From Corbicula japonica (lineage: Eukaryota; Mollusca; Bivalvia; Venerida; Cyrenidae): a DNA stretch of 64,000 nt. Position 1 is the first letter of the stretch. Each line of letters begins with the position of its first letter. The notes under the pieces are model-generated. The model searched no databases. It saw nothing but the letters and a program-made list of their open reading frames with translations, and was not told where the DNA came from. Where the stretch lies: assembly GCA_038501625.1 (NCBI GenBank), contig JAZAYU010000010.1, positions 9,941,380-10,005,379 of the forward strand, written 5' to 3'. Positions 3,101-57,089 of this stretch are shown here, in pieces. Both the position numbers and the translations under genes were made by a program.

Positions 3101-6100
3101 ATAGTAACTTGCCAGAAATGTTCACCATGACAAGCTGGTGAGTCGTGTACCATTTCCATGCCTTTAGGTCAGTTCTTTTCTGTAACATTACTGAAGTGAT
3201 TGATAATTGACTAAAAGTAAATATCTCTAATAAAAAAATTTCTAACAAGTTTTCTAACAACTTCAGAAATATTTCATAGTTATTCCCCTTTTCAGTTTAA
3301 TATTTATGGTACATTAAGAAATTATTTCTGTTATTTGAAATGAATTTTTCCCTTACCATTCACTTGTTAATATTTGTTAATATTTTTACTGATTGCACAT
3401 GAATGTATGGCCATAGTTGTTACTGTTTTAATCTTCAAATTGCATTTGTTTCAAATGATTCGAATAGTCGAGCATGCTGTCTCCTCTGACAGCTCTTGTT
3501 GCTCTGATTGTCATGAAACTTGGTCAGGGTGTTTGTCCCTATGATTTCTCGGACGAGTTCGAATGTGGGTCATCTGGGTCAAAAAACTAGGTCACTGTTA
3601 CTAAAAATAGAATTATCTTGTTAACACTCTAGCGACAACATTTTTGCTCCGATTGTCATGAAACTTGGTCAGGATGTTTATCCCAATGATTTCTTGGACG
3701 AGTTCGAATATGGGTCAACTGGGTCCAAAAGCTAGGTCACTGTTACTAAAAATAGAATTTTCTTGTTAACACTAGCGGTCACATTTTTACTCCGATTGTC
3801 ATGAAACTTGGTCAGGATGTTTGTCCTAATGATTTCTCAGACGAATTCGAATATGGGTCATCTGGGTCCAAAAACTAGGTCACTGTTACTAAAATTAGAA
3901 TTTTCTTGTTAACACTCTAGCGGTCACATTTTTGCTCCGATTGTAATGAAACTTGGTCAGGATGTTTGTCCCAATGCTTTCTCGGACGAGTTTGAAAATG
4001 GGTAATTTGGGTCCAAAAACTAGGTCACTGTTACTAAAAATAGAATTTTCTTGTTAACCCTCTAGCAGTCACATTTTTGCTCTGATTGTCATGAAACTTG
4101 GTCAGGATGTTTGTCCCAATGATTTCTCAGACGAGTTCGAATATGGGTCATCTGGGTCCAAAAACCAGGTCACTGTTACTAAAAATAGAATTTTCTTGTT
4201 AACACTCTAGCGGTCACATTTTTGCTCCGATTGTCATGAAACTTGGTCAGGATGTTTGTCCCAATGATTTCTCGGACAAGTTCGAGTATGGATCATCTGG
4301 GTCTAAAAACTAAGTCACTGTTACTAAAAATAGAATTTTCTTGTTAACACTCTAGCGATCACATTTTTGCTCCGATTGTCATGAAACTTGGTCGGGATGT
4401 TTGTCCCAATGATTTCTTGGACGAGTTCGAATATAGGTCCAAAAACTAGGTCACTGTTACTAAAAATAGAATTTTCTTGTTAATACTCTAGTGGTCACAT
4501 TTTTGCCTCGAATGTCATGAAACATGGTCAGGATGTTTGTCCCAATGATTTCTTGGACGAGTTCGAATATGGGTCATCTGGGTCTTGGTCACTGTTACTA
4601 AAAATAACTTTGTTGTACTCAGGTGAGCGATAAAGGGCCATCATGGCCCTCTTGTTGTACTTAGATCTGGTCGTGAAAATTTCCAAAATAAGAATAATTG
4701 CCAAATTTACTCAACCCATCCTTTGCTGTGTTGTTTTGGGTATTTCTATTTCTGTTTGCTGATATGTTTTTAGTATTTTAAACAGATAAGTAAACTTAAA
4801 CTGCTGTAATTTCTTACTTAGAGCTTGGTTCAAATAACTTGAAATTTGGTGGGCAGAATAACAACTAAACAACACAAGTGAAATTACTGGTAAAAGATAG
4901 GCACCCTTTTTAGAAGAGGGACATTTATTAGAGTAAGCATGGCAAATGTTGATATAATTATGTACAACAAAGCAATAAAATGTTGTTTTTTTCTTTTCCA
5001 GGCAGAATTTCTGTTAACAAACAAGGAGAGATCTCATATCAAAAAGGCATGGATAGAATATGAAAGTACCTGGTTAGTATGTGTTTACTAAATTTTACAA
5101 TAATTAAGGGATGAATAGTGTTTGATTAGTTTTGTCAGTATCTGCTGCAGAATTAAGTAGCAGACTTAACAGGTTATGAAGATTTACTGTAGTATCATTA
5201 TGTCTCCCCCCCTCTGGGAGAGTCATATTGTTTTTGCCCTGTCCGTCCGTCCGTCACTCCGTCTGTCCGTCTGTCACACTTCATTTCCGCTCAATAACTC
5301 GAGTACCCTTTGACCCAGAGCCTCCAAACTTAATAGGGTAATAGCCCTTATTGAGTAGAAGAACCCTATTGATTTTGGGGTCAGTAGGTCAAAGGTCAAG
5401 GTCACAGTGACCCGAAGAGTGAAAACCGTTTCCGCTCATTAACTCAAGTATCTTTTGACCCAGAGCCTTCAAACTTCATAGGATGACAGCCCTTATTGAG
5501 TAGAAGAACCCTATTGAGTTTGGGGTCAGTAGGTCAAAGGTCAAGGTCACAGTGACCCGAAGAGTGAAAACCGTTTCCGCTCAATAATTTGAGTACCCTT
5601 TGACCCAGAGCCTTCAAACTTCATAGGGTGATAGCCCTTATTGAGTAGAAGAACCCTACTGATTTTGGGGTCAGTAGGTGAAAACCATTTCCGCTCAATA
5701 ACTGGAGTACCGTTTGACCCATAGGGTGATAGCCCTTATTGATTAGAAGAACCCTATTGATTTTGGGGTCAGTAGGTCAAAGGTCAAGGCTGGGGCCCGA
5801 AGAGTGAAAACAGTTTCTGCTCCATAACTTGAGTACCCTTTGACCCAGGGACTTCAAACTTCATAGGTTGATAGCCATTATAGAGTAGAAGAACCCTATT
5901 GATTTTGGGGTCAGTAGGTCAAAGGTCAAGGTCACAGGGGCCTGAAGAGTGAAAACCGTTTCCGCTCAATAACTGGAGTACCGTTTGACCCACAGACTTC
6001 AAAATTCATAGGGTGATAGCCCTTATTGATTAGAAGAACCCTATTGATTTTGGGGTCAGTAGGTCAAAGGTCAAGGTCACAGGGGCCTGAAGAGTGAAAA

Positions 6101-9100
6101 CCGTTTCCACTCAATAATAGGAGTTCTATTTTACCCAGACCATTCAAACTTCATATGATGGATGTCCTTATTGAGTAAAAGACGCCGAAGAGTAAAAACG
6201 GTATCCGGTCAATTTCTGGAGTACCGCTTGACCATGTTAAATAGGGTAATAGCCCTTATTGAGTAGAAGAACCCTATTGATTATGGGATCAGTAGGTCAA
6301 AGGTCAAGGTCACAAAGGTCAAATAAGACTGTTTCCCGCTGACGTAAATTTGCGCAAATAAAAAAAAATTAACCAAGGCAAAATCATTATTATTATCATT
6401 ATTTGACCGATCTGTTATTGTAACCTTTTGTTTATTTGATCACGCGAGCCAGTCATGTGTCAGTTGGCCCCTGTCAATTACCGCTTCCTTTAATTTTGTT
6501 AGGCTAGTATTCCATGGTTCCGTGATGCGTGATCCGTGTGCATGTCTGTGCCTGCATCTGTGTCCGCGATTTTTCACTCACCAAAGATATCATTGGGTTT
6601 TTCCATACCTCCGCGTCCGTGTCCGCGGTGTGGAACGGACACAGAGGAATGGAATATACCCAATGATATCTTTGGTGAATGAAAAATCGCGGACACGGAC
6701 GCAGACACGACCACGGATCACGCATCACGGAACCATGAAATACAGGCCTTAGTCAATTATCAGACCCTTGTTTATTCGGTGCCGCTAATTGACGGGACCA
6801 GTTAGATCCATCTATATGGGCCCTAATATAATTGGATTGTTAAATTGCGTACCCGTTTTATGTTCAAAGTGTCAATAAATTGTAAAACAATTACTCAAAC
6901 AGGGTTTATAAATTTAAAAAAAATGTTTTTACGTGTCAAAATAAATAAACAGAATGAGATAACAACGATACATTTTGGTAAAACATGACTTATCGTAACC
7001 TAAATGCACAGACTTATTTGTTGTAACAGTTTTGAAGTAACATTTAAAATATTACAAAAGAAATTCGACAGTAATAACTAATTGTATTTCCTTTATGAAT
7101 ATGATTATTCAATACCTCAAATTTAAATAAAATAGCAATACGAGCAACTAAATACAAAGTGTAGGTAAATTCAGACAGCACGTTTCAGATACGTATGTGG
7201 AACTACATTGTTAAATATTTGCTTAGGTTTTAAATTCACGCACTGGCCCGAGCGTGTAATATGCGAAAATTAAGCTATGGCTAAATAAAATGATACCACA
7301 GTATCAAACTGCCCATATTAGGAAAATATCTGAGGGCTTACCTTTACTACTGGGGCAATAGTTTTTAGATGGCAACTGATCGTAACTATATACATCTAGA
7401 TACACATTTTATTACATGGATGACCAGTGTACATTCAGATCAGATGGCACATTCTTGCCATAGTTCTTAATGCAATTAATAAAATCCTGGTAATGATCAA
7501 TTTTCCATGAAACACCCATTCAAAACAAATGATATGGATGAGATTGTAAACAATAGTATAATAGTAAGACCATTACATTAATTCAGCAGGTAAAGTGTCA
7601 ACCTTTTTTCTCAGGGAATCAGGGCTTATATGCAGTGTAGATCCAGATCAGCCTGCACATCTGTGTTATCTTATCAGAATCTACACAGTCTGCTTCTTCA
7701 TCAGCCTTTCATTACCATGGATACTAAGAGACGTGCATATCATGGTAAGACTGCTTGGATCTGCCATAAGCCCCTGGTCAAACATGGAATATGACCAGTA
7801 TCCATGGTAATGAAAGGTTGAAAAACAATAACAACATTCTATATTTCAGTAACATTGTGAAGTTGTTACATTCTATATTTCAGTAACATTGTGAAGCTGT
7901 TACATTCTATATTTCAGTAACATTGTGAAGCTGTTACATTCTATATTTCAGTAACATTGTGAAGCTGTTACATTCTATTTTTCAGTAACATTGTGAAGCT
8001 GTTACATTCTATATTTCAGTAACATAGTAGAGCTGTTTGAATCAGTGTCTCAAGTTTTAGATACACCTTCGAAGAAAACATTGTGGATGTTTATCCTGGC
8101 ACGACTGTCCCCTCCCCACCAACAGTATTGTATCAACCAGATCTCCATGCCCAGAAATATTCTACTTGGTAAGTGGTATTTGCTTTTAACACTTAACTCC
8201 GGAACATCCTGATCAGATAACAGGGATGTGTTGGCAGATCTGGATCTACACTGGTTGCAGATGCGTAAACATGCGTATATGGAGAAAAGATTTAATTTGA
8301 TTGTTCTGTATTCATACTTTGGTTTTTTGTGTCGCCCTTTCGAAGAAACGGCTATATATAGGGACCGCTTTGTTGGTCCGGCGGTCCGGCACAAAAACTT
8401 AACGTTGGCTATAACTTTGCCATTTCTTAATATTTCTTTATCAAACTTTCAAATTATATTGCTTATGACAACACGCACTAGATGATGCCAAATTCTCAAG
8501 GTCAAGGTCACATTTGATGGAATTATGCCCCCTTTTGTACTTGGATTTTTACACGAAAACTTTATGTTGGCTATAACTTTGTCATTTCTTAACATTTTTA
8601 CTTCAAACTTTCAAATTATATTGCTTATGACAACACACTCATGATGATGCCAAATTCTTTAGGTCAATGTCACATTTGATGGAGTTATGCCCCTTTTTGT
8701 ACTTGCATTTTCATTCTGAGAGAGCACCAGAGGGCGACACAAGTGTTCAACTGAACACCCATCTAGTTATATTAACTTGAAACTTGGAATATATATTCAC
8801 CATTAATATCTATATCGTTTTCAACAAAATCATAAAACTCCATTTATAAAGGTTTTATTAAATTTGCAACCAGCATAGATCAAGTTGAGCTGGCAGATCC
8901 ATCCGATCTGGTTGAACTGTTGTACACTGTTTGCTTCTTGGTCAGAAATATCCTTATAAATATAAAAGTTTACAGCATAGATCTGGATCAGAGGGCATCA
9001 GGATCTACATTGTTTGCCCATAGCACGGAAACCAGTCTCAAATCTCAAGCATCTGATTGGCTGAAATGGCGACCATGTCGCCATTTCAGCCAATCAGATG

Positions 9101-15100: not shown

Positions 15101-18100
15101 TTAAGTATGTTATCACTTTGCTGTAGCAGATATTTTCACAGTCATTTTGGTTGTAAGAATATTGATGTATATATTTTGTATTTCTCAAATGTTACTTGGC
15201 CAAAGTAAAGCCAAACAATATACACCATATTGGTAAAACTTTTACAATTTCTGGTAGTAATGTTTTAGCCCTTTACTCACACATTTATTGTATGAGCTAA
15301 CAGTGTTGATCTAGATCAGCCGGCACATCTGTGCCTTCTATTCAGGATCGTCACCATTCTCTTTTAGATTTATTTGATTTTTCTGACCAATATGTGACTG
15401 AAGCAGAACCAGATCAGATGGCATGGTTGTGCAGGCTGATCTGGATCTACACTAGTCGCACATGCTTTAAAATGCATATACATGTATATGAAGTAAAGTG
15501 TTAAAACATTTATGCCCTACTTTCCAGCAATACCTTTCGTCTGAAGAAGAACAAGACATACAATTGAAGAGCAGTTACAGAAAAACAAAACCTAGGCAAG
15601 CAACAGGTAATCATTGGATCTACAGTGAAACCAGTTTAAGGACTGGAAAAAAGTGGTCTTTACAGTGAGGTTGTCTTTATTTCAGGGTAGAAAATAATGC
15701 AAAACTGCAAAATGGGACATCTGGCCTTATTATTGAGGTGGTATCAATTTTCTTTAATGGGGTTTTACTGTATGTTTAAGTCAAATTTTAGGATCGGATA
15801 AGTTATAAGGACCAAATTTTGTCTTGATGATATCTTTAACACATTTGAAACTGTCATCTGGAGTCTAAAAGTAGGTAAAATCAACAAAAATCTTTGTTAA
15901 TACAAAAGAAGCCACATTTAAAACACATCTGTTTCAAACAGGTAGTCTATGTCATGGATATCTCACGGTGTGTCATTGTCCTTTATAGATTTGGTTAACC
16001 CTTTACTTCATATATACACCTTTAAAGCATGGACAAACAGAGTAAATCTGGATCAGCTGGCAAATATGTGCCATCTAATCAGGATGAACACTGTTTGCTT
16101 TTAGATTCATTTAGTTATTTCTGACCAGTGCAGATCCAGATCAGTTGGCACAGATGTGCCAGCTGATCTGGATCTACACTAGTGGCTCATGCATTAAAAC
16201 ATGTATATATGGAGTACAAAGTTCAGTTTCCCAGAGTGCTCAAGGTTCCATGGAGTACAGAGTTAAGTTTTCCAGAGTGCTCAAGGTTTTGATGATCAAA
16301 ATTGGAAGTTTCACTGTATAGATTTTTTCAACTTTATTATTTAGGTAATATGAAATTACTGAAAAGATTTGCCCATTTTTATCCCACTTAAGTACATGTT
16401 TATTTATTCACAATTGTTTTTGCTGCCTTGTTTATTTGGAATCCAAGGAATACTGATCTAGTTGATAGCCATTTTTAATATAAAGTTTATTCTCAGTGCT
16501 AGAGTAAGTAATGACATCACCATGAATGTCATCTATTAGAACCTGGACCTTGTTGAGGTCTGCAGTGAGCTGCTGAATGTTTTTTGTATCATGGCTACAT
16601 ACATATACATAGCCATGTTTGTCCACAGAAATACCCACAGGATATTTCAGGTCATTATCCTTATAGACGGCCTTGACCTTCCCACCCAAGGTCATACTGG
16701 TAACACTGTTTTTCTTGCTGTCAGTTAAATACAGCGTTTGCCCATCAGGACTAACAGCTATTCTTTCCATGTTACCTTCTTTATCTGTGTGGATGATCGT
16801 TGTGATCTTTTCTGTCATGTTCATTTTATCAATCCTGTGTGGCTTAAGTCCATAAATATTACCTGCACTGTGTACCATGCTGCAATAACAGTCATGTGCG
16901 TGAAACAGCTGGTTGGTTGGCTCTATGACTCCGGATTCAGACACAGTGAAGATTTTTATTTGCTCTTTAAAGTTTGATAATGATACTGATACAGCAAGCT
17001 GATCGTCACTTACTGATGTCACTGAAAAAATGTCGGCTGCATCAACAGTTATCTCTGAGATCACACATTTACTGTTTGCATCTATCACCTTCAACTTCCT
17101 GTTCCCCGTATCAGATGCAGCACAGTAGTGTCCATGCATTGCGGTGATTGCAAGTATATATGGCTCTGTTTCATCTGTTATAGTCTTTATGTCAGTCACC
17201 GACACGAGTCTGGCTGTTGCAAGTTTGCAGATTTCTGTAGTTGTTCTCATCATAGCCTGGATCTGTTCTGATGGAAGCATTGTAAAATTCTGTATGCTGA
17301 GTTCCTCTTGAATTTTGTCAAATTGATCATGAAAAGATCTCATTTTCCCCTGGCTCTGTTTCATTGCAATAAATTGTCCACATTTTTGTCCTGTGTTCTT
17401 TGCCTCCATGTCAATCTTTATTTCATCAAATTCTCTTTTCATGCAATCTAACCTTTCAGAAGCAGCTTTTAGAGTGTCTTTGTTTCTTTCCTCTATAGCT
17501 GTAATTTGTTCATCTATCATTTTCTCCAGTTGATCAAAAAATGAGTTGACAATGGCCCTCTGGCATTTTAGTTCCTGTTTAGCAAGCGTTTTCATTTCAT
17601 AGTTGAAAGTTATATGTGCTTTTAACTTTTCCTCGTGTTCAGAGAATGCATTATCTGTTGACTGAATGTCTTTATGAAACTTCTGGAAGTCTTTGGTATG
17701 TTCTTGATCAAGATCTTTGACAATGTCAGAGATGTGTTTCACTTCCTCACATTGACAATGATCAGTTGTGACACAGATGTGACATGCAAGTTTATTACAT
17801 GTCTCACAGAAGAGTTCTATGATTTCAATGGGATGGCTTGGGCATTTTTCCTCACAGATGTCCAAAAGTCCTCTAATGGAATCGGTAGGAATTGGCATTG
17901 AGTCCTTGTTAAGTAGCACATGGATTTCTGTTTCTCTTTGCTGTTGATGTACCTGGTAACACACTTCACAAAGATATACATGACAGTCCACACAGTAACC
18001 CTCAGCTTTAACTCTAGCTTCATCACAAGAGTAGTAAGAGTCATTGACATCAGATGCTTCAAATGCAGAATGACTGTATTGCTCTGACTCGGCCATTCAA

Positions 18101-24100: not shown

Positions 24101-27100
24101 ACGTTGACTTAATCATTTGATCTTTTTTACCACCCACGAAGAATGAACAAACATATACATTGTAAATGTGCAAAAAAATTGGGATCCACGGACCAAGCGC
24201 GATATATTGGATATCGCGATATAACGGATCGCGATATAACGGAGTTGCAGTGTATATATCTCAGTAACTGCTGACTGATTTGATTTGAACATTCCATAGT
24301 GTTTTCCTGAATATAAGACGATAGGGTTCAATACAGTAAATTTCACCAAAAAAAATTTGCAAATTTGGTGCCTGTTGACACAGTCCAACTGATCAGTTTA
24401 CAAAAAATTTAATGCAAAAACAACATTACAGGTTTATGTAGAGTTTCCTCTTTTCTTCAATTATAAAAAGTTGAAAGGAAACAACACTAGGATTTTGAAA
24501 ATATCTATACAACATGTTTCTACTTTTTCAGTCTTCTTCTGGTACAAAAACAAAAAACTTAACATCCATTGCACATAATTAAATCCCAACATGAAATTGA
24601 AACAAACAATACTCCTATCCTTCAACCAATTTCTTATTCACCCCACCTCCTTCATTCCTCTTACTTAGGTAACACATTCAACAGACATGCCCTCACTGCT
24701 TTAAAGCAGTTAGATGCAGCAGTGGCAGCAGAAGTGTCTGATTTTGATGCCAGCCGGAAAACAGGGAACAAGTTATCTGCTGAGACTATGGAGGGGCAAT
24801 CTGAGAATGGAGAGACATTTTTTCAGGTACCTCCGCCACCCCCACCACCTCCACCTCCAGGTTTGTGCTCTTTTTTTATTTTCATATGTGCTGAAGATTT
24901 TTAAACTGAGATTTGAAACTAGCCTCAAATCTCAAGCATCTGATTGGCTGAAATAGCCAGTTGCCATTTCAGCCAATCAGATGCTTAAGATTTTAGACTG
25001 GTTTCTATTCTTAGTTTTATGATCTTGGGCCCTAATCTACCATGACAAAATGGGGCTTATAGTCCATGTGAAGAGCACTGTGCTCTTGTTTTATTCTCAT
25101 CATCTACTATGACAAAATGGGGCTTATAGTCCATGTGAGGAGCGCTGTGCTCTTGTTTTATTCTCTTCATCTACTATGAATAAATGGGGTTTATAGTCCA
25201 TGTGAAGAGCACTGTGCTCTTGTTTTATTCTCATCATCTACTATGACAAAATGGGGTTTATAGTCCATGTGAAGAGCACTGTGCTCTTGTTTTATTCTCA
25301 TCATCTACTATGACAAAATGTGGCTTATAGTCCATGTGAGGAGTGCTGTGCTCTTGTTTTATTCTCTTCATCTACTATGACAAAATGGGGCTTATAGTCC
25401 ATGTGAGGAGCGCTGTGCGCTTGTTTTATTCTCTTCATCTACTATGACAAATTGGGGTTTATAGTCCATGTGAAGAGCACTGTGCTCTTGTTTTATTCTC
25501 TTCATCTACTATGACAAAATTTGGCTTATGGTCCATGTGAAAAGCACTGTGCTGTTGTTTTATTCTCTTCATCTACTATGACAAAATGGGGCTTATAGTC
25601 CATGTGAAGAGCACAGTGCTCTTGTTTTATTCTCTTCATCTACTATGAAAAAATGGGGCTGATGGTTTATGTTACTGGCATAGACCCTGCTCAGCCTATG
25701 AATCCACATATTCTGATCAGCTTGTACACAAGTCACTATTCAGTAAAAGAATCATTCATCATGTATCTAGAAAACAGTTTTAATGGTTCTGACTAAGTCT
25801 AAAATTAGATCACGATTTACAGTTATGGAAAGTCAGTCACAGGTAAACATATACATATGCATTATTTTGTCTTCATTGGCTTTTAATGGTTCCGAAATTA
25901 AATATAATTCTGACTCCTGCGTCCACTTTCCCATCCATGCCTTAGTAACCAGGTGATTTGGACAAGAGCTATTCATTATAAACAAATAAGTAAAAGTTAT
26001 CCCTTAGATCTTTAGACAGGTTCTTGCTGAACAATTGTTTTTATTTTTGTGCCCCCCCTACCTACCCCACCCCCTCTTGGGCAAACTGGGAGAAAACCCT
26101 CTGTATATTTGTCTTCATTTCTTCCAGTTGCTCCGCCCCCTCCTCTACCACCAGTTCCAGGCAATATTTCATCTCCAGATAAAGGGATGAATGTCAAAAG
26201 AATTAATTGGGAGAAATTAGACCAACAGAGAGTTGAGAATACAGTATGGGAACAGGTAAGTTGTTAAATAGAAAGAAACACATTAGGTGTTTTAGAGTAT
26301 GGGAACAGGTATGGTATTTTACAGTATTGGAACAGGTATGGTATTTTACAGTATGGGAACAGGTATGGTATTTTAGAGTATGGGAACAGGTATGGTATTT
26401 TACGGTAAGAGAGCAGGTATGTTGTTTTACAGTGTTGGGAACAGGTATCATTGTGTATTAAATTATGGGAACATGTAAGGTATTTTACAGTATTGGAACA
26501 GGTATGGTATTTTACAGTATTGGAACAGGTATGGTATTTTACAGTATGGGAACAGGACTGGTATGGTATTTTACAGTATTGGAACAGGTATGGTATTTTA
26601 CAGTATGGAAACAGGTGTGGTATTTTACAGTATGGGAACAGGTGTGGTATTTTACAGTATTGGAACAGGTATGGTATTTTACAGTATGGGAACAGGTATG
26701 GTATTTTACAGTATTGGAACAGGTATGGTATTTTACAGTATGGGAACAGGTGTGGTATTTTACAGTATGGGAACAGGTGTGGTATTTTATACAGTATGGG
26801 AACAGGTATGGTATTTTACAGTAGGGGAACAGGTATGGTATTTTACGGTAAGAAAACAGGTATGTTGTTTTACAGTGTTGGGAACAGGTATCATTGTGTA
26901 TTAAATTATGGGAACATGTAAGGTATTTTACAGTATGTGAACATGTGTGTTTTTACAGTAAGGGAACAGGTATGTTGTTTAACAGTATGAGAAGAGGTAT
27001 GTTGTTTTACATGGTTTGGAACAGGTATAACGGTGTTTTAAATTATGGGAACAGGGAAGGTATTTAACAGTATGTGAACAGGTATGTTTTTACAGTATGG

Positions 27101-30100
27101 GGATAGGTATGGTATTTTACAGTATGAGAACAGGTATGTTGTTTTACAGTATGGGAACAGGTAAATTTTTACAGTATGGGAACGGGCATGGTGTTTTACA
27201 GTAAGGGAACAGGTAGGTTGTTTTATAGTAAGGGAACAGGTATGTTATTTTACAGTAAGGGAACATGTAGGTTGTTTTACAGTTTGGGAACATGTAGGTT
27301 GTTTGAAAGTATGGGAACAGGTATGGTGTTTAACAGTAAGGGAACAGGTAGGTTGTTTTATAGTAAGGGAACAGGTAGGTTGTTTAACAGTAAGGGACCA
27401 GGTAGGTTGTTTTACAGTAAGGGAACAGGTAGGTTGTTTTACAGCAAGGGAACAGGTAGGTTGTTTTATAGTAAGGGAACAGATATGTTGTTTTACAGTA
27501 AGGAAACATGTAGGTTGTTTTACAGTTTGGGAACATGTAGGTTGTTTAACAGTGTGGGAACAGGTAGGTTGTTTTACAGTATGGGAACAGGTATGGTGTT
27601 TTACAGTAAGGGAACAGGTAGGTTGTTTTACTGTAAGGGAACAGGTAGGTTGTTTACAGTAAGGGAACATGTAGGTTGTTTTACTGTAAGGGAACTGGTA
27701 GGTTGTTTTATAGTAAGCGAACATGTATGTTGTTTTACAGTATGGGAACATGTAGGTTTTCTAACAGTATGGGAACAGGTATGGTGTTTTACAGTAAGGG
27801 AACAGGTAAGTCATTTTACTGTAAGGGAACAGGTAGGTTGTCTTACAGTAAGTAACCAGGTAGGTTATTTTATAGTAAGGGAACAGGTATGCTGTTTTAC
27901 AGTTTGGGAACATGTAGGTTTTTTAACAGTATGGGAACAGGTATGATGTTTTACAGTAAGGGAACAGGAAGGTCGTTTTACTGTAAGGGAACAGGTAGGT
28001 TGTCTTACAGTAAGTAACCAGGTAGGTTTTATGATAGTAAGGGAACAGGTATGCTGTTTTACAGTTTGGGAACAGGTAGGTTGTTTTATAGTAAGGGAAC
28101 AGGTATGTTATTTTACAGTAAGGGAACATGTAGGTTGTTTTACAGTTTGGGAACATGTAGGTTGTTTTACAGTATGGGAACAGGTAGGTTGTTTTATAGT
28201 AAGGGAACAGATATGTTGTTTTCCAGGAAGGAAGCATGTAGGTTGTTTTACAGTTTGGGAACATGTAGGTTGTTTTACAGTTTGGGAACAGGTAGGTTGT
28301 TTTACAGTATGGGAACAGGTATGGTGTTTTACAGTAAGGAAACAGGTAGGTTGTTTTACTGTAAGGGAACAGGTAGGTTGTTTACAGTAAGGGAACATGT
28401 AGGTTGTTTTACTGTAAGGGAACAGGTAGGTTGTTTTATAGTAAGGGAACATGTATGTTTTACAGTTTGGGAACATGTAGGTTGTTTTACAGTATGGGAA
28501 CAGGTAGGTTGTTTTATAGTAAGGGAACAGATATGTTGTTTTCCAGGAAGGAAGCATGTAGGTTGTTTTACAGTTTGGGAACATGTCGGTTGTTTTACAG
28601 TTTGGGAACAGGTAGGTTGTTTTACAGTATGGGAACGGGTATGGTGTTTTACAGTAAGGAAACAGGTAGGTTGTTTTACTGTAAGGGAACAGGTAGGTTC
28701 TTTACAGTAAAGGAACATGTATGTTGTTTTACTGTAAGGGAACAGGTAGGTTGTTTTATAGTAAGGGAACATGTATGTTGTTTTACAGTATGGGAACATG
28801 TAGGTTTTTTAACAGTATGGGAACAGGTATGGTGTTTTACAGTAAGTAACCAGGTAGGTTATTTTATATTAAGGGAACAGGTATGCTGTTTTACAGTAAG
28901 AGAACATGTTTGTGTTTTTACAGTAAGGGAACAGGCATGTTGTTTTACTGTATGTGAACAGGTATCACAATCAATACCCTTGAAAATACCAAAATACATT
29001 TCTGTATAGCATTTAATGTTCAAATGTTGCCATGTTGTAACAATTTGTCAATGATAATTATGTTGCATTCTTTCCATTTTTTTCAGATTGGAGAAGCTAC
29101 AGACTTGCAGGATGTGGTCAGATATCTGGAACTGGAGCAGTACTTTTCAACCAAATCTCCCAAGCAAAGTATGCTTGATTCTGTTACTGAAATGTTTAAA
29201 GCTTTATTTCAAAGAAAACATTCTTCTGTGGATAGTTAATTTATTCAGTGGGATTTCTAGAATAGTTTGTTTGGCATGGGATAGGGGAGGGTGGGGTTTC
29301 CTGAAGTATGCTCATATTTTTATTGTATTTCAATTTTAGCACAAGGTGGTATGCTCTAAAACCATTTTTTAAAGGACCCAGCGGTCATTATTTTTCTAAT
29401 TGTGTAAATCTGCACAGATCTCATGATGGTTTTATGCTATTACCCCACGCCTTGTTGCAAAAAGTACATGATTGTCTGCTAACAGTTGATCTGTTTCGTG
29501 TTTCTGTAACAGACACTTCCAGTATCTGCTGAACCCTTTTCGTTGAAGGTTGAGATAGGACACAAAGTGTTGGCCGTTTCAAATAACAAATTTGTTATTA
29601 TTGAGAAAGACATTTCTGATATGTATGAAACAATTGCTGCAAATGGTTGGCAAAAGCATTTGAATCTGATGATGTAACAATTTATTAGATGCCAATCACT
29701 ATTCTTGTAATTATAGATTTGTAGATCCAGATCAGCCTCAAATTCATATAGTCTGATCTGGATCTTCACAGATTGCTTGATGGTCAAAAGTAACCTAATG
29801 AATTTTAAAGCCAGAAATGTAGATCCTGATCAGACCACACAAATCTGCAGGCTGATCTAGATCTGTTATAGTATTTTGCAAACAAGAACCCAGTGTTTTT
29901 CTTTAGTGACGGACAACAAATACCAGTGGAGGCGGCCATATTGCTCATGTGTAAAACACAGATTATCACAACTCGGCGCTAAAAGTAATACAGGTCATTT
30001 GTAATAGTACCCTTTAAGGGTGGCTATACAGCGCCACTATTAGAATGTCATGCACACACAAAATCGCTGGCTTCAGGTAGGTTTTTTGCTTATTTCTCAG

Positions 30101-33100
30101 TAATTACTTGACCAATCAGATAAAGAGCACTGTACTCCTGTTAAAAAACATTTTTATCAACATTTAAGTTTCAATATCAATTGGCTGTTGTTTTTTCATC
30201 CATTCAAAGACAAATTTTGTTATAAAATGTCTTTGAATGTTAAAAAAAACAATATTGAAGGTTAAATAATGATGAAAATGCTTTTTTTAACAGGTCTGAG
30301 TACGATGCTCTTTATCTGTTAAAAATCGGTCCAGAAATTCCTGAGAAATAAGCAAAAAACCTACCTGAAAGCAAGTGATTTTATGTGTGCATGATATTCT
30401 TAAAGTCACATGGTATAACCACCCTGCTTTTGCCTGGTGTGAAGAGTTACTAGCGTTTAAGTTTCGTATTCCTCAGTTAACCTACCTGTAATTTTTGGTG
30501 TGTAACATAAGATTGAATTAATTTTAAACATTAACTCAAATCATTTAATGTACTCCTTACTAATCTTAATAAATCTGGAAAAAAATGTTGTGGTTTTGGC
30601 ATTTAAGTTTTGTGTTTCTCAGTAAGCCTGATTGTAATTTTTGGCTTTTAGGGTGTAACGTTGTAACTTATCTTTAACATTAGCATCAGTTTTTTGATTT
30701 AGAATAACTAACCTAGATAAAGTACTATGTTTTGTATTTGAAATTGCAGTAGCCATTAATCTGCTTTTTGGGGCCAAAATTTGGTTCACTTCCTTGCTAA
30801 TAAGATATTATATTATTTTATCTGCTGGTTTAAGTAAAAACTTCTAGTTGAAAAAAAAAGTACTGCATAACTTTTGACCGTCGTTTTCTCTCATGAAGTT
30901 AGATAAGTTTCTCTCATGAAGCTAATTAAGTCTGATTTTTATTTTCCAAATTTAAATTTAAACACCTGTGACAGACAGGTCTTATTATTGAAACATTCCC
31001 AATAATATTCACAAACCTGTGAAACATTCCAAATAAAACTACCAGAACTGTGAAACATTCCTAATAATTTCCTCAGTGAATGGATTTACTTAATTCAAAG
31101 AAAGAGGAAATCCATTTCTATAATTCAGCTCTTGTTATGCAACATATCTTATCTTTACTTTATTAATTTCAGAATTACCAGAAAAGAAAAATGAAGTGTG
31201 TATACTCAACCAAAAAAAGTCTTACAATATTTGTGAGTATTTTAAGAACATTAACCCTTTCCTGTATAGATACACCTTTATTGCTAGGGTGAACAGTTCA
31301 GATCCAGATCAGCCGGCACATCCGTGCCGTCTGATCAGGATCTAAACTGTTCGCTTTTTGATTCATTAGGTTATTTCTGACCAAAATGCGACCAGTGCAG
31401 ATCCTGATCAGACGGCACGGATGTGCCGGCTGATCTGGATCTACACTGGTCGCACATGCGTAAAAATGCGTATCTGTACAGGAAAGGGACAAAGTTTGAA
31501 CTGTTCGGACAATGATTTCTGGGATAAACTTACAGGATCCTGTAAATAAAACATTTCATATTTTACTTTAAAAAATAAATGACAAATGTTGAAATAAACA
31601 AATTCAAACATGGGATTATTTTGGCTTAAAGGTGTTTGACATAAAATATGGACTCAGCATTTCTAAACAAAACAGAAATGAAAGCTATGCCCAAATTTAT
31701 TGCTTTCAGATAGTTTTGTGTTACACTCTGTACCCAAGACTATTAACTGTAAAACAGAGACCAGTCTCAAAGTTAGTTTTGTGTTATACTCTGTACCCAA
31801 GACTATTAACTGTAAAACAGAGACCAGTCTCAAAGTTCTAGGTTTTGATTGGTCAGTTTGGAGACTGAAGTTCTAACCAATCAGCTCCTGGAGATTACAG
31901 ACTGGTACTCTGATTCTCAGTAATTTAATTTTTGGCCCTGATATTTTTCAGCCATTCTTCTGGGACACCTGAAGATGTCGCTAAGTGAGATTCGTCATGC
32001 TCTATATCTACTTGACGAGGAAGTATTGACTCCAGAACTGTTAAGGCAGTTGCTAGCCTACGCCCCGAACAAACAGGAGGTAAGTTATTGTCACCTTAGT
32101 GCAAAAACATTATAAGTGCCATTTAAATAAGGATTTATACCATTTTTGCACTAAGAAAACCAGGTTATTGTAATGCTGATGTTGGCGTCAGGTGGGCAGG
32201 TGTCAACTTTGGTTTCCACTCAATAACTTGAGTTTCTGTGACCTATTGACACCAAAAGTGGTGTGTGGGTAGCTTATATAAAGATGCAACTCTTGTTTCG
32301 CTGCATTGTGGCACTTCTTGTGGCATTTTTTACAGATTGATAGGATTATACAATTGTTTTGAAGGTTGCATTATGTTCTATTTGTTTTCAATTAAAGCAA
32401 GATAATACTAACAACCTCTTAAAATAAATAACTTTTGACAAATAATGTAAGATCAAATGAATAATAATTCGACTAAAATCTTCATTTTTAAAATTACATG
32501 CTCAGTACATGCTATGTGAGGCAAAGTTTTTGTGTGCTTTGTACAGTCAAACCTGTGCCCAAGGTTATAAAGCTGAGCATGGAAACCAGTCTCAAATCTC
32601 AAGCATCTGATTGGCTGAAATGGCGACCAGTCGCCATGTCAGCCAATCAGATGCTTGAGATTTGAGACTGGTTTCCAATCTCAGCTTTATAACCTTCAAC
32701 CCTGTCTTCAAAGACCACTCAGAGAAAATCCCAGAAGTGGTCTTTAAAGGCAGATGATCTTTATTGACAGGTAAATTAGTTCTTTTTACCGTACCATCTG
32801 ATCAGGATCTGCACTGGTCACTATTTGGTCAGAAATAACCTAACAAATCATAAAGCAAACAGTGCAATCCTGATCAGATGGCACGGATCTGCCGGCTGAT
32901 CTAGATATACACTGTTTGCCCACACAATGAAGGTTTTTCTGTAGAGGAAAGGGTTAATCATTGAGTGGGACAAATAAAATACCGTCATTATCCGTAGGTG
33001 ATCTTTTTATAAAGGTGGTCCTCAACACAGGTTGAACTAGTTTACTGTCCACTGAGGACAATATAGCAGGGGCCCTATTAACCCTTTCCTCCATATTTAC

Positions 33101-36100
33101 GCATTTTTATGCATGTGCGACCAATGTAGATCCAGATCAGCCGGCACATCTGTGCTGTCTGATCAGGATCTGCACTAGTCATATTTTGGTCAGAAATAAC
33201 CTAAGGAATCAAAATGCGAACAGTGCAGATCCTGATCAGATGGCACAGATGTGCCGGCTGATCTGGATCTAAACAGTTTGCCCTTGCAATAAAGGTGTAT
33301 CTATGAAGGAAAGGGTTAAGTTACATTCATGGCTTTGCTAACTTCATAACTAGATGTTTGTATGCCAACAGCTTGCACTCCGACATTTTGTGGCATGATT
33401 AAAAGTCCATGGTGTCACCTTGTGCGAAGTAATTTATATCAGTTTGTTAACTTGGCGTATATGGCATAGTTTTCTGGTATCTGTATCAAATTCCTCAAAG
33501 TTCCTCTATTTCAACAACAAAACTGTTAGTTTGCTCTTTTAATAATATAGATGGATTATTTTGCAAGAGTGGTTCACACCAGTGAATAGTTTTTAGAAAG
33601 ATTGGTGTGACATTGACTTTTGAAAAGTGAGAGTTTGAAGATCAGTATCAGCAGAGAAGGCATTTTTTATTCAAACAGTGGGAGATATTCAGTTTATTCT
33701 GATAGCATTAGTTATACTCATTATTCAAAGAAAAGTTGGGAGCTTCCATATATGTTTGTTATGACATGGTGACCAGATTAGCTAAATGCATCTGTGCAAT
33801 GTGATCTGAATCTATACAGGTCACATCTTTGTTAGAAATAAACTTATGAATCTAAATGCAGTGTAAACCCTGATCCGATCTACAATGTTTTTCCTTGCAA
33901 TTAAGGTGTATCTTAAGAAAAGGGTTAAGACTTTTTCAAGGTATTTAGTAACAAAAATTGGGAATTTTCAGTTGGTATAACAATAATATTCTCTCCCTTC
34001 AGACACCTAGCAAATGTCTTCTTTTTCTGAAAAAGGAAAATTTCAGGGGTCTTAATTACTCTTATCAGTGGTTGTCATACATTTTTTGCAGATGGAGCAG
34101 TTTGACTCGTACAATGGAGATATTGAAGAGTTGAGCAAGCCGGACAGATTCACATATGAGGTGCAGTACTATATTTTCTTCTACATGAGTGAGGTTCAAA
34201 TAAGCAAATCATACATTCAGGAAATGTATTATTTTTTACGTGATCCCCATTTCACTTAACTGCTTTGAGCTATGTCCTATAAGCACAATGGTTGGAATCT
34301 GTCATCTACATAAGTAAAGCTAATTCTGGTATCAAAAAGGATAACTCCTGAATGACCTTGTATAGGTTATGTCTCTTTCAAATGATTTCTAACTTTAAAC
34401 CTAATGTTGCTTAGTACACTCCCTAATGGTACAATATTTGGAATATCATTAATGTAGCAATTGCTGAAAACAAGAATGATAACTCCTGATTAACTCATGT
34501 TTTAGTTATCCCCCTTTCAAATGACTACTACTCCTGAAACACACTGTTGCTGTTATTTTTAGCTCACCTGTCACATAGTGACAGGGTGAGCTTTTGTGAT
34601 CGCCCTTCGTCCGTCGTCCGTCCATCCGTCGTCCGTTCACAATTGTTGTCCGCACTCTAGCGATCATAATTTTGGTCCGATCATCTTCAAACTTGGTCAG
34701 AATGTTTATCTCTATGATATCTAGGTCAAGTTCGAAACTGGGTCATGTGACCTTGAAATCTAGGTCACTGGGTCAAATTATAGAAAAAGCTTGTCTGCAC
34801 TCTAGCTGTCTTCATTTTGGTGCGATCTTCTTTAAACTTGGTCAGAATGTATATCTCAATGATATCTAGATCAGGTTTGTAACTGGATCATGTGACCTTG
34901 AAATCTAGGTCACTAGGTCAAATTATAGAAAAAGCTTGTCTGCACTCTAGCAGTCTTAATTTTGGTGCGGTCTTCAGTAAACTTTGTCAGAATGTTTTTC
35001 TCAATGATATCTCCAATACTTGTTTTACTATAAGATCTCAGTTCCTTTCTTGAACCAGCTAGATTCCATAATGGGTTCCGGAGTTATGGCCCTTGAAAGA
35101 GCCAAAGCATGCTATTTTGACATTTTCTCCACAATAGCAGCTTTATTTTTTGAGTTGATTTTACCACACTTGCACAAAACTCTTGCAAGCATTGAGTAGT
35201 TGTTGACAGGTGAGCGACCCAGGGTCCTATGGACCCTCTTGTTAAAAGTTTTGGCTCTGTTGGCACAATACTGGGGGTACATATTGTCTAATTATGTTAA
35301 ATTTTAATTTACAGTTTTTGCTGAATGTGATGAACAAGAACAAGAACATTCTTGTTTCTTTATTTTCAGATGAGCAGAGTTCCAGGATATGAGCAACGGT
35401 TGAAGGCTCTTATATTCAAAGGCAACTTCCAAGAGAAAATCAGCGAAATGAAAGAGGTAAAATACCATAACTATTCCAAGATTTAGAAAGGGGATATGTA
35501 GCATATTCTTCAATCTGTCTGTCATGTTTTATGTCTGCTCCATATCTTAACCCTTTCCTCCATATATACGCACTTTATGCATGTGCGAATAGTGTAGATC
35601 CAGATCATCCGGCACATCGTGCCGTCTGATCAGGATCTGCACTGGTCGCTTTTTGGTCACAAATAACCTAGTAAGAAATCAAATAGGGAACAGTGCAGAT
35701 CCTGATTAGACATGGATGTGCCAGCTGATCTGGATCTGCAGTGTTAAATAACCCTTTACTCCATGGATATGGCTTGTATCATAGATAGAGCTTGTATTCG
35801 TAGATATGGCTTGTGTCCCATGTGACCTGTGTAGATGTTCACTTGTTAGTTGATACAAACATCAGTTTTTTTAATGACCATATCAGCCATAACAACACTC
35901 TGACCACACACACACAGGGCTCTCACTAGACTTGCAAATCAGGGAGAAGTTTTGTCATAATTTTACTGAATTATGGAGAAGTTTGCAGTAAACAGCATCC
36001 TTTCCCTATATAGTCTATACAAAGTGACTTCTCCCATAGCTCAAAGAAGGGAGAAGTCTAGTCACTTTTCCGAGACCACTTCTCCCAAGTCTCCCTCAAG

Positions 36101-48178: not shown

Positions 48179-49191
48179 CGAGGGTTGTATGATAAATTCG
48201 TGGACTTTTGTTATAGAAAGTACAAACAAACTCATATCAAGATAATTTTTATATCGTCATTATCGTCAATTCATTGCAAACAAAGTAAAGAAAACCGCTA
48301 GTCAATACATAAAATAGTTTACAAATAACAAGGGTAAATACAAAGGCTATCAACGTGCACCGGAGCACGCCGTTAACAAAAGACGCTCACAACGTCTAAA
48401 AAATCGCATTAATAGCGAACGTTCATTTCTCAATGTAATCACCTCCAAGATGAATGCACTTTTCATGTCTATGTATCCATATTTAATTCGTCTGCAATTA
48501 CTCTGTGCACGGTATTTATAGACATATCGACATTTTCCGAAATTTCACGCACAGTAAGGCGACGGTCGTTATCAAGCAACGCCGTAACTTTCTCTTTAAT
48601 TGATGTTGAAATCTTCTTAGGTTTTCCGCTTCGGACATCATCTTCTAAACTTTCTCTACCCTTTCGATATCGATCGTGCCATTTAAATACCAGAGATCTA
48701 CAGCAAGGTGTATGTTTCGCTTCCCGAAGTTTTTCAAGCGTCTGTGTCGGAGTAAAACCTAAATTCACGCAAAATTTAATATTTGCACGGACTTCGTGGT
48801 CAGTTTTTGACGTCATGCTTTTTAGACACCTTAGCTACAGTTTTTGCAATTGCTTTGTATGTTTATAACATAGAGCGCTGAAAATTAACGGAAATGACGT
48901 TCAGACGTCACATAATCATGTGACAGATTCCCGTGAAAATTGACATTCGTATACATACTTTGATTGTCGTATGTTTTCTGTACAAAACGTATAAAAACGG
49001 AGTGCTCCAGCAACCGTTACCATGGATCCGTTATAGCTATTTAATCATAGATTATGATGCAAATATAAGTCTTAATATATGATTTTAGGATAGCAGGCAC
49101 ATTAAATTATAACGTGTGCAAAATACATGTATCTACGGCACATATTAAAGTTTTAGCAAACAAAGTCCGCGAATTTATCAAACAACCCTCG
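48179..49191 (-). mobile_element. Truncated mariner element with intact ends
   Basis: Inverted ends cgagggttgtatgataaatt (left) and aatttatcaaacaaccctcg (right); TA duplicated at 48177-48178 and 49192-49193. Length 1013 bp, shorter than a usual autonomous mariner of about 1.3 kb. It carries the N-terminal part of a transposase only. Confidence 0.9.
48469..48816 (-). pseudogene. Mariner transposase, N-terminal DNA-binding part only
   Basis: 115 residues from Met to a stop. The paired helix-turn-helix domains of mariner transposases are seen, for example SLVFKWHDRYRKGRESLEDD, then RSGKPKK and RRLTVREISENVDMSINTVH. The family usually has about 345 residues with a DDD catalytic core; none of the core is present and only about 290 bases remain to the element end, so the 3' part has been deleted. 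It could at most bind element ends. Confidence 0.9.
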
Positions 49192-50474: not shown

Positions 50475-51584
50475 TATGCCCCCACAAAGTGGGAGGCATA
50501 TAGAGTTGCACTACGTCCGTACGTCCCCAAATCTTGTGGCATCAACTCCTCCTAAACTACAAGGCAGATTTCTTGCAAACTTGCACAGATGATGAAGCAG
50601 GATGTGTAGATAATCGTGAAGAAAGGATTTCTTCCTGCGACCATTTTTACCAGAGTTATGGCCCTTTGTTATATTCATTAATTAAATCTTGTGGCGTCAG
50701 CTCCTCCAAAACTATAAGGCAGATTTCTTGCGAACTTGCACAGATGATGAAGCAGGATGTGTAGATGATCGTAAAGAAAGGATTTTTTCCTGCGACCATT
50801 TTTACCAGAGTTATGGCCCTTTGTTAATTTCAGTAATTAAATCTTGTGGCATCAACTCCTCCAAAACTATAAGGCAGATTTCTTGCAAACTTGCACAGAT
50901 GATGAAGCAGGATGAGTATGATGATCGTAAAGAAAGGATTTTTTCCTGCGACCATTTTTACCAGAGTTATGGCCCTTTGTTAATTTCAGCAATTAAATCT
51001 TGTGGCATCAACTCCTCCTAAACTACAGGGCAGATTCCTTGCAAACATGCACAGATGATGAAGCAGGATGTGTAGATGATCGTGAAGAAAGGATTTTTTC
51101 CTGCGACTATTTTTACCAGAGTTATGGCCCTTTGTTTTTTTCAGTAATAATATCTTGTGGCATCAACTCCTCATTTACTTTTGGACAGATTTCTTTCTAA
51201 CTTGCACACATGATCAAGATGGCTGGGTAGATGATCATAAAAAAAAGATTTTTTTCTGCTGCCATTTTTACCACAGTTATGGCCCTTTGTTTATTTCACT
51301 TACAAAATTTTGTGGCATCAACTTCACATTTTCTATTTGGCTGATTTCTTTCAAACTTGCACAGATGATTAGACATGATGTGAAGATTGTTGTAAAGGAC
51401 ATTGTCTTGCAACAATTTTCACCACAGTTATGGCCTTTTGTTTATGTTAGTTATTGAATTTTGTGGCACTTACTCCTCATTAATAATCATGATCACCACA
51501 TGTTGTTAATACCTGGTACAAAATTTTGTAACAAATGTTATTGCAGCAGTGGGGGCATCAGTGTCCTGTGGACACAGCCTAGTT
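50475..51584. mobile_element. HINE-like element, family H, multi-unit copy
   Basis: atgcccccac left; six units of about 155 bp (cttgtggcatcaactcctcc at 50534, 50690, 50844, 51000...); gtgggggcat right (51549-51558), hairpin gtgtcctgtggacac, end cctagtt. Open frames here are repeat artefacts. Confidence 0.85.
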
Positions 51585-51736
51585 TTAGTTATGTCCCTTT
51601 CAAATGCTATTTAGGTGACACATGTGTTCTGTGGTGTAGTATTGCAACCGACTTGAATTAAATCTTTTTATCTTCTATGATTAAACAGAGGCCAGCATTT
51701 CAACTTTTTGCAAGGAAGCGACACATGTGTTCCGTG

Positions 51737-52475
51737 TAGGGATGGGAACGAGTAATCGAGTACTCGGGTACTCGATTAACGTCCGAGTACCCGAGTAGTT
51801 CATGAAGTATTCGAGTAACCGATTAAAAAGGTAAACAGAAAAATCAACCAATTTTTATAAAAGTTGTCTTTATGGAATCTGACTGACAGTTAATTGTCAA
51901 CACCTCGCACCTGGTTTCGAATAAACAAGATGACACTTAGGGGCACAAATATCCAATAATTGGCGCCTAATTGATGTTATTGTTTGATGTTGTAACACAG
52001 ACAATTTGCAATCATGAAAATTAGTTCCTGAATATTTTAACCACAACGCTTCCCTCATCGGCTTTTTATTTGATTTTGTTTATTCAATAATTATATTCAA
52101 ATGCGATTGTTGATTGTAAGTTTGCAAAACTGAAATAAAATCTGATCGGAGAACATACACTTTTTTCACGATGTGTCCATTTTACGGTGATGTTCTAGTT
52201 TGTGGCACGGGCTAATTAATAATTGTTAAGTTAAATTTTTTCAACGTTGATAATCGAAATACATTAAATATCATTAAGGTATTTTTGTTTTCTGTAAATG
52301 TGTATCTTCTTGAATAATCGATAAAGCAGGCAGTCTGGCATTATCATATCCGGTACGATCGTTAAAACTTATGGAAGCTGATATTTCCTCTTACGTTAGA
52401 GAAAGGTTTCGAGTACTCGATGGGAACAAGGTCCAAGTACCCGAGTACCGATTTTGCTACTCGTTCCCATCCCTA
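51737..52475. mobile_element. hAT-type MITE with perfect 8-bp duplication
   Basis: Ends TAGGGATGGGAACGAGTA / TACTCGTTCCCATCCCTA; flanking 8-base duplication GTTCCGTG at 51729-51736 and 52476-52483. 739 bp with many cgagtactcg subterminal motifs; no transposase. Sits in the terminal hairpin of family J. Confidence 0.93.
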
Positions 52476-52502
52476 GTTCCGTGGAACACCAAAATCCTAG
52501 TT

Positions 52503-56699: not shown

Positions 56700-57070
56700 T
56701 TTTTAGTTTTAGTCAGTAAATCTTAGTAGGTTTAAAATGCTTCACTTTTAGTCAGTAAATATCATAGAGTTTTAAATGCTTCACTTTTAGTCAGTAAATT
56801 TCATAAAGTTTAAAATGCTTCAGTTTTAGATAGTAAATCTCATAGGGTTTTAAATGCTTCAGTTTTAGTTAATAAATCTCATAGGGTTTAAAATTTTTCA
56901 GTTTTAGTCAATAAGTAACGTACAGTTTAAATGCTTCAGTTTAAGTCAGTAAATTTCATAGGGTTTTAAATGCTTCAGTCTTAGATAGTAAATCTCATAG
57001 GGTTTTAAATGCTTCAGTTTTAGATAGTAAATCTCATAGGGTTTAAAATGCCTCTGTTTTAGTTAGAAAA
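56700..57070. repeat. 39-bp tandem repeat, about 9 copies
   Basis: Unit ttttagtcagtaaatctcat agggttttaaatgcttcag, moderately diverged. Confidence 0.9.
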
Positions 57071-57089
57071 TCTCGTAGGGTAATAAATA

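Follow-up and report, generated by a model that had tools for sequence, protein, structure and literature searches.

The closest described relatives of the array reported here are the mirages of amphioxus, minisatellites which repeat an exon-intron boundary (PMC3087553, in the part available). Examples named in the accessible parts of two reports are Adh3, the globin genes BflGb6 and BflGb9, PGBD5, and TnC; the Adh3 units measure 10-72 bp, and regular splicing is described there as undisturbed by the mirages (PMC3087553; PMC3902484). Elsewhere, splice signals were found to be created by tandem duplication of AGGT (PMC3443670), and human genes to have gained new introns out of variable internal repeats (PMC2812944), both according to the available portions of these papers. 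As far as these portions permit comparison, the array in the clam Corbicula japonica is, like an amphioxus mirage, a boundary-crossing tandem duplication, part coding and part intronic, with AG and GT signals in many, but not all, units (both signals in 78 of 101 in the clam). Edge units of an amphioxus mirage escape homogenisation, and the clam array has a decayed unit beside the exon. The two differ in copy number, about 100 in the clam against 3 and 6 in two BflGb6 haplotypes, and in the way they are known: splicing and instability were studied in amphioxus, a member of another phylum, while the clam array is known from sequence alone. An array of this kind is already known, and what is new is its recurrence within one genome. 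The locus suggests that boundary-spanning minisatellites are present in a bivalve too. Leaving aside a paper on Conus gene structure and introns, we recognised no such minisatellite from a mollusc in the open-access literature searched, which does not prove absence. With intron gain by AGGT duplication, as far as it is set out in the available text, the clam array shares the making of splice signals by tandem duplication; there, however, a new intron arises, whereas the clam intron is apparently older than the array and no new intron was seen. Intron gain by AGGT tandem genomic duplication and human introns derived from tandem arrays were reportedly described by Rogers in 1989 and Zhuo in 2007. 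Recursive-splice (ratchet) sites also repeat donor and acceptor signals within an intron. They consist of a pyrimidine tract-AG and then GT, a form which the clam units lack, with 0 matches to TTT[TA]ACAGGT in the array. The VNTR of 38-bp repeats in TERT intron 6, which is said to affect splicing, is an intronic minisatellite like the clam array.

The window, i.e., the whole stretch of DNA analysed, comprises 64,000 nucleotides. The array is situated between two exons, labelled by numbers carried over from the preliminary description:

26128..26255, + strand: 'exon 12', end of the proline-rich FH1 and start of FH2, ending in ...RVENTVWEQ (tblastn, Pfam, Mytilus delphilin)
29087..29167, + strand: 'exon 13', beginning IGEATDLQDVVRYLELEQYFSTKSPK..., 3' end provisional (exon model, tblastn)

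Pfam recognised FH2 in the joined exons (7.5e-66), and the top of 16 matches was Delphilin from Mytilus edulis (E 1.4e-112, 59% identity). By these matches the gene with the array is a delphilin-type formin, its FH2 being nearest to delphilin. 'Exon 12' is 128 nt long and is flanked by introns of about 1,267 and 2,831 nt. The coding part of the repeat unit is FH2 sequence, found as NTVWGQ in Mytilus delphilin and as GTVW in DAAM1 (PDB 2z6e); as these coding bases are found in relatives, the exon preceded the array. Protein model P0016 has the same exon end as NTIWEQ, followed by 42 codons, apparently of intron, and in this single model those codons contain no 9-residue repeat and no array.

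The array and its parts were delimited as follows:

26240..28965, + strand: 27-bp donor-seeded minisatellite of mirage type, about 100 copies (TRF, wraparound alignment)
26240..26266, + strand: founder-type unit, the 16 last coding and 11 first intron bases (consensus match)
26272..26297, + strand: decayed unit adjoining the exon, donor GT gone (row 3 of the wraparound alignment)
28136..28586, + strand: 131-bp exact internal duplication, 28136-28266 occurring again at 28456-28586 with a shift of 320

TRF reported a single array of period 27 with 100.7 copies and 81% matches, and wraparound alignment gave 102 rows, the first and last being partial. The array occupies approximately 96% of the 2,831-nt intron, in agreement with the preliminary description of about 100 tandem copies filling it. 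The same description had the array begin with the coding end of 'exon 12' (...NTVWEQ) and its donor, and this was borne out. The exon-intron boundary lies inside the unit, and the first unit, TACAGTATGGGAACAG before the boundary and GTAAGTTGTT after it, is identical to the array consensus in 25 of 26 bases, versus 17 of 26 for its best match outside the array on either strand of the window. The decay of the edge unit is clearly visible, but this is one case only. The units are heterogeneous, the 5' part of the array is unlike the 3' part, and internal copies are nested. Length instability is hinted at by nine internal repeats, exact over 62-131 bp, in the one haplotype, and the 131-bp duplication is segmental growth of the array.

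The following splice signals are referred to below:

26253..26261, + strand: genuine donor CAG/GTAAGT, GT at 26256 (U1 pairing, donor matrix)
26265..26267, + strand: in-frame TAA, so that a downstream array donor would give ...WEQVSC and stop (translation)
27803..27811, + strand: the only other CAG/GTAAGT of the array (GT-site scoring)
29067..29086, + strand: genuine acceptor attctttccatttttttcag, score 14.25, exceeding all 262 array AGs

Sites were scored with a donor and an acceptor matrix, and donors also by U1 pairing. The genuine donor was the top of 361 GT sites between 26231 and 28970, equalled only by the one at 27806. Signals in the units were counted in 101 rows, with the exon unit included and the first partial row excluded. 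The donor position holds GT in 93 rows, CAGGT in 64, CAGGTA in 60 and CATGT in 25, so the statement that every unit has kept cag/gta does not hold. At the acceptor position AG was found in 84 rows, jointly with GT in the 78 mentioned above, and exact TTTTACAG in 53. An acceptor-like motif 11 bases upstream of the donor had also been ascribed to every unit; the spacing was confirmed by 47 occurrences of TTTTACAG precisely 11 nt upstream of GT, but not the presence throughout. No separate gain of this acceptor-like motif is required, as it arises at the junction of intron GTTGTT with exon TACAG in the next copy.

The acceptors of the array are weak. The best of its 262 AGs scored 8.94, against 9.11-14.25 for seven scored acceptors of the gene (the one near 31936 fell outside the scoring, with no AG in the range examined), and most have a further AG 4-16 nt upstream. 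The genuine acceptor, in turn, lies about 120 nt past the array end, and the AG before it is 77 nt upstream. Over the 100 complete rows, the splice columns were slightly more conserved than the others (0.94 vs 0.86), but 17% of random four-column sets equal them, and selection on these columns was rejected on that ground. The intron had been likened to about 100 consecutive 11-nt micro-exons, adjacent ones of which would need 16-nt introns; because the splice columns are ordinary and the array acceptors weak, that reading is unsupported. A single 11-nt inclusion would indeed shift the frame, as had been pointed out, but it had been overlooked that the use of any array donor with the frame kept leads to an in-frame stop.

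We consider it quite probable that the array is a neutral, self-masking minisatellite of mirage type, which was born at the donor of 'exon 12', is spliced out with the intron and has no function itself. It would have started as a 27-bp tandem duplication over the boundary of exon 12 and intron 12, taking in the final 15-16 coding bases, the donor, and some 11 bases of the intron. Every new junction would then place T-rich intron bases before the exon TACAG, giving an acceptor-like motif with scarcely any further change. Neutral growth to about 100 units presumably followed through slippage or unequal exchange, in part by copying whole segments, of which the longest exact one has 131 bases. Between long introns the 128-nt exon would be recognised by exon definition, with the first donor used and the array removed with the intron, while stray use of a later donor would meet an immediate stop. 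The array would be tolerated because it is self-masking. The strength of the donor at 27806, equal to the genuine one, stands against this explanation; the array may nevertheless be spliced out because an upstream donor can win under exon definition, even against an identical donor.

The choice of the true donor had been put forward as an open question, but a rule has been published, that of the upstream donor under exon definition (PMC9225289, in the part available). In exon-definition minigenes with two identical CAG/guaagu donors the upstream one was used exclusively; the unfiltered human events, whatever their architecture class, lean towards the downstream donor, the upstream one being favoured only in strength-matched exon-definition events and in minigenes (same part of PMC9225289). 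In that part of the source, the rule was derived in human genes and in minigenes where two donors compete, compared with about a hundred here. Choice by U1 strength alone was also considered. It nearly fits delphilin, but most of the other arrays measured have some later donors which are equally perfect, and therefore it is not a general rule; in array C292 the first donor, CAGGTTAGT, is weaker than later ones.

The 1.07-Gb genome contains 20 perfect-donor arrays versus 5 for the reversed motif, as raw counts in a census where true donors make CAGGTAAGT common and which left GAGGTAAGT arrays outside. Nine of the 20 start at an apparent coding-exon end, as judged by translation; three of these (C7, C44, and C101) were missed by the automatic criterion, spotted by eye and then translated. 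An acceptor with an open frame of 60 nt or more precedes the first donor in 10 of the 20 arrays; among 115 donor-like sites in the window, 16 have one (Fisher 0.0007). For frames of 110 nt or more the figures are 8 of 20 and 10 of 115 (Fisher 0.001), the 115 control sites still including real exons outside 26000-29100. A similar census of one acceptor motif gave no excess, 15 hits vs 18 in the control, where hits were not merged into arrays. Families were searched by exact reference for ten exons, including C58 and C251, and with hand-typed peptides for C6 and C7. Four of the nine exon-edge arrays had a family match at E <= 3.8e-7, namely G6PD, HSP70, LRP2-type EGF, and glucosidase II beta; the PRKCSH-like C44 scored 3.8e-7, yet below the Pfam cut-off. 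The match of C99 to TMEM230 was weak (0.0076) and under the cut-off, and C36 had no family match. The hand-typed peptides of C6 and C7 gave no family; for C6, a candidate MTHFD1, C-1-tetrahydrofolate synthase was matched weakly in the PDB (E 0.39), behind a chance match to tau (0.036). For C322, a candidate JIP3/4, the PDB search returned nothing relevant and Pfam just 0.063, to another family. In these arrays the exon is followed by a handful to about 100 more donors, some of them letter-for-letter identical to the real one. The arrays are probably of different ages, since unit identity ranges from 74% to 100% (TRF matches).

It is possible, but rather doubtful, that minisatellites in this genome arise preferentially at splice donors. 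A donor-linked mutational process, connected, e.g., with transcription or with DNA structure at the exon-intron step, would then keep seeding arrays at exon ends, and trains of tens of perfect donors would stand in many genes because exon definition hides them. The splicing field asks how the right donor is found among look-alikes, and the minigenes cited, as available, compare two at a time. The clam exons, with a handful to about 100 extra donors in unrelated genes, make a natural test of donor choice. If their RNA is spliced cleanly, exon definition would be much sturdier than tests with two sites are able to reveal; otherwise, array length would be a source of variable output.

The neutral minisatellite was weighed against four other explanations. 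The array could act as a regulator: U1 snRNP would bind to its dozens of donor-like sites in the nascent RNA and so retain the transcript or prevent premature polyadenylation, with length tuning the formin output. CAGGTA is dense in the array (21.75 per kb, elsewhere in the window 0.294 per kb), and the scored region has 25 copies of CAGGTAGGT, the 13 listed having a duplex energy of -11.8 compared with -12.1 for the genuine donor. Nevertheless, regulation is improbable: the splice columns are no better kept than chance sets, CAGGTA is missing from 41 of 101 rows, P0016 has no array past the same exon end, and unrelated genes host similar arrays. Real alternative splicing, with appreciable use of array sites giving 11-nt micro-exons or an extended exon 12, mostly ending in stops, is decidedly improbable. 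The 47 regularly spaced motifs and the one array donor as strong as the genuine donor would suit it; the 16-nt introns, the low acceptor scores and the preceding AGs would not, nor would the amphioxus mirages, which reportedly leave splicing undisturbed (PMC3087553, in the part available). That the assembler made or inflated the copy number or unit order appears very improbable, given the heterogeneous units, the 5'/3' difference, the nested copies and the position within a 13-Mb contig, although short reads cope badly with arrays of this size and the length in the assembly may be inexact. The least credible is an older intronic minisatellite which gave rise to the exon end or moved into it: the shared sequence by itself would allow it, but the coding bases in common belong to FH2 sequence present in relatives, and P0016 has the exon end without the array.

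A second copy or haplotype of the locus was rejected, as a DNA search of the clam's own genome (query bases 1-139) matched the end of 'exon 12' at one place, the window's own locus, among the best candidates, which were the ones scored. Two weak matches to the array part (C221 and C6) turned out to be simple TATGG-type repeats and were rejected too.

The array in intron 12 was recovered as a single, clearly seen feature at 26240-28965 (TRF; period 27, 100.7 copies, 81% matches), and wraparound alignment to its consensus gave 102 rows, the first and the last of them partial. It occupies approximately 2,710 of the 2,831 nt of intron that separate the donor (26256) from the acceptor (29086). The first unit lies within exon 12, where it reads TACAGTATGGGAACAG (codons ...T-V-W-E-Q) and is followed by GTAAGTTGTT. 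This exon-end unit and the array consensus agreed in 25 of 26 bases, versus 17/26 for the best match outside the array (64-kb window, both strands), which bears out the proposal of the preliminary description that the array originates from the end of exon 12 and its donor. Motifs were counted in 101 rows, a set that takes in the exon unit but not the first partial row. GT stood at the donor place in 93 rows, CAGGT in 64, CAGGTA in 60 and CATGT in 25; AG was found at the acceptor place in 84, the exact acceptor-like motif TTTTACAG in 53, and GT together with AG in 78. The row adjoining exon 12 had lost its donor GT. The statement that every unit keeps cag/gta and carries ttttacag was therefore too broad. 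The array has grown by segmental copies and contains nine internal repeats that are exact over 62-131 bp. A 27-bp tandem duplication would set the intron bases GTTGTT before the exon's own TACAG, and because this junction would give the acceptor-like motif, the separate gain proposed earlier is unnecessary.

The joined exons, first located with a probe, matched Pfam FH2 at 7.5e-66, and the best of 16 protein matches was Delphilin of Mytilus edulis (E 1.4e-112, 59% identity), so the gene was assigned to the delphilin-type formins. The coding bases common to exon 12 and the array are the start of FH2. The exon end has the counterparts NTVWGQ in Mytilus and GTVW in DAAM1 (PDB 2z6e; weak match, E 0.0094). 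Since these bases are FH2 sequence found in relatives, exon 12 is taken to predate the array. In the protein model P0016 the exon end is NTIWEQ and the frame continues for 42 codons, apparently into the intron; no 9-residue period was found in these codons, so this site seems to have an intron without the array.

The array had been likened to about 100 consecutive micro-exons, which is an overreading. The exon 13 acceptor scored 14.25, a value attained by none of 262 array AGs, and the highest of these (8.94) stayed below the weakest of seven scored acceptors of the gene (9.11). Most array AGs are preceded by another AG at a distance of 4-16 nt, while the AG preceding the real exon 13 acceptor is 77 nt away. 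Neighbouring micro-exons would need 16-nt introns between them, shorter than any known to be spliced in animals. Conservation at the four splice columns was 0.94 versus 0.86 elsewhere, equalled by 17% of random column sets. The genuine donor, CAG/GTAAGT, ranked highest among 361 GT sites both by U1 pairing and by a donor matrix, tied with 27806 alone. With an in-frame TAA at 26265-26267, use of a later donor would stop translation three codons past exon 12.

Similar arrays were sought in the own assembly (1.07 Gb, 1,630 contigs) as three perfect donors CAGGTAAGT at spacings of 5-35 nt. The 81 matches merged to 20 arrays, against 19 matches and 5 arrays for the reversed motif (20 vs 5, p 0.002); the delphilin array is missing from the 20 because it has just two perfect donors. 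An acceptor motif census gave no excess (15 matches, 18 for control). Nine of the 20 arrays, named here by contig (C6, C7, C14, C18, C36, C44, C99, C101 and C322), start at an open exon bounded by an acceptor, and their units repeat the final 5 nt (C101) to 34 nt (C6) of that exon. A stop follows at most 16 codons past the first donor in eight of them; in C18 none was seen in the 30 codons viewed. Four arrays were doubtful (C11, C58, C251, C292). In seven (C12, C23, C41, C115, C138, C182, C310), either inspection by eye showed no exon at the array edge or that edge was not covered. Under a fixed criterion (an acceptor plus at least 60 nt of open frame), exons were found at 10/20 arrays versus 16/115 donor-like window sites (p 0.0007), which is partly expected, since CAGGTAAGT is a frequent sequence at true donors. 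Donor-seeded arrays recur in this genome; the claim is recurrence, not preference. Ten edge exons were submitted to a Pfam family test, in which C36, C58, C251 and C292 gave no family match.

Pfam results for the array-edge exons (contig: family, value)
C101: HSP70, 2.8e-17
C18: EGF_LRP2, 2.2e-17
C14: G6PD_C, 1.3e-13
C44: PRKCSH-like, 3.8e-7 (30.5 bits, under the Pfam cut-off of 34.9)
C99: TMEM_230_134, 0.0076 (under cut-off)
C322, presumably JIP3/4: best 0.063, to another family

C6 aligned weakly with C-1-tetrahydrofolate synthase (27/28 residues, E 0.39). The C58 array (piece L054, from 1534) has a 42-bp period with VSLNDTVIYDISTQ repeated and a frame open for the 30 codons viewed, and may be coding repeats, not intron. 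The exon frame of C251 is likewise open through 30 codons viewed past the donor. Units in C251 (L060), C115 (L057) and C310 (L062) consist of a pyrimidine tract and CAG/GTAAGT, e.g., CTACACTTTTTTCTACACAG/GTAAGT, and resemble recursive-splice sites, with acceptor and donor back to back. Arrays of TTTTTGCAG at C246:70029 and C38:3437430 (assembly G000) may be acceptor-side mirages.

In most of the perfect-donor arrays measured, some of the later donors equalled the first in perfection, and the choice of donor therefore cannot in general rest on pairing strength. According to Carranza and co-workers, the donor closest across the exon is preferred between long introns when strengths are similar, and minigenes with two identical CAG/guaagu donors used the upstream one exclusively; human events unmatched for strength lean to the downstream donor, and the stronger site was dominant in 86% of events (PMC9225289). 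Exon 12 (128 nt) is flanked by long introns (approximately 1,267 and 2,831 nt), so the upstream-donor rule applies to it as far as a human-gene rule can. Copies arising downstream of the donor would then be spliced out, which would explain the persistence of such duplications.

The first report of mirages is said to be that of Canestro in 2002. In amphioxus, these tandem duplications across exon-intron boundaries are described in Adh3, globin genes, PGBD5 and TnC, with Adh3 units of 10-72 bp, AG/GT in many units, edge units that escape homogenisation, and regular splicing reported as undisturbed (PMC3087553; PMC3902484). The delphilin array agrees with them in anatomy, with a unit that spans the boundary and AG/GT in many units, and it belongs to this already described kind. 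No mollusc case was recognised in the open-access literature searched. The value of the array lies in its copy number, its phylum and, above all, the fact that such arrays recur in unrelated genes within a single genome.

Other features of the window were as follows.
16432-18096, - strand: intact 554-aa frame, which we take to be TRIM-like; B-box zinc finger and C-terminal SGL family match, both barely above the Pfam cut-off
48469-48834, - strand: open frame presumably resembling a mariner-type transposase N-terminus
1709-6182, 25035-25660, 50529-54000 and 56705-57081: further tandem arrays with periods of 39-385, none overlapping a placed formin exon
31298-31555 and 33036-33272, among others: dispersed repeats encoding a ...DPDQPAH.C.LIRI... 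peptide, by eye probably a short interspersed element
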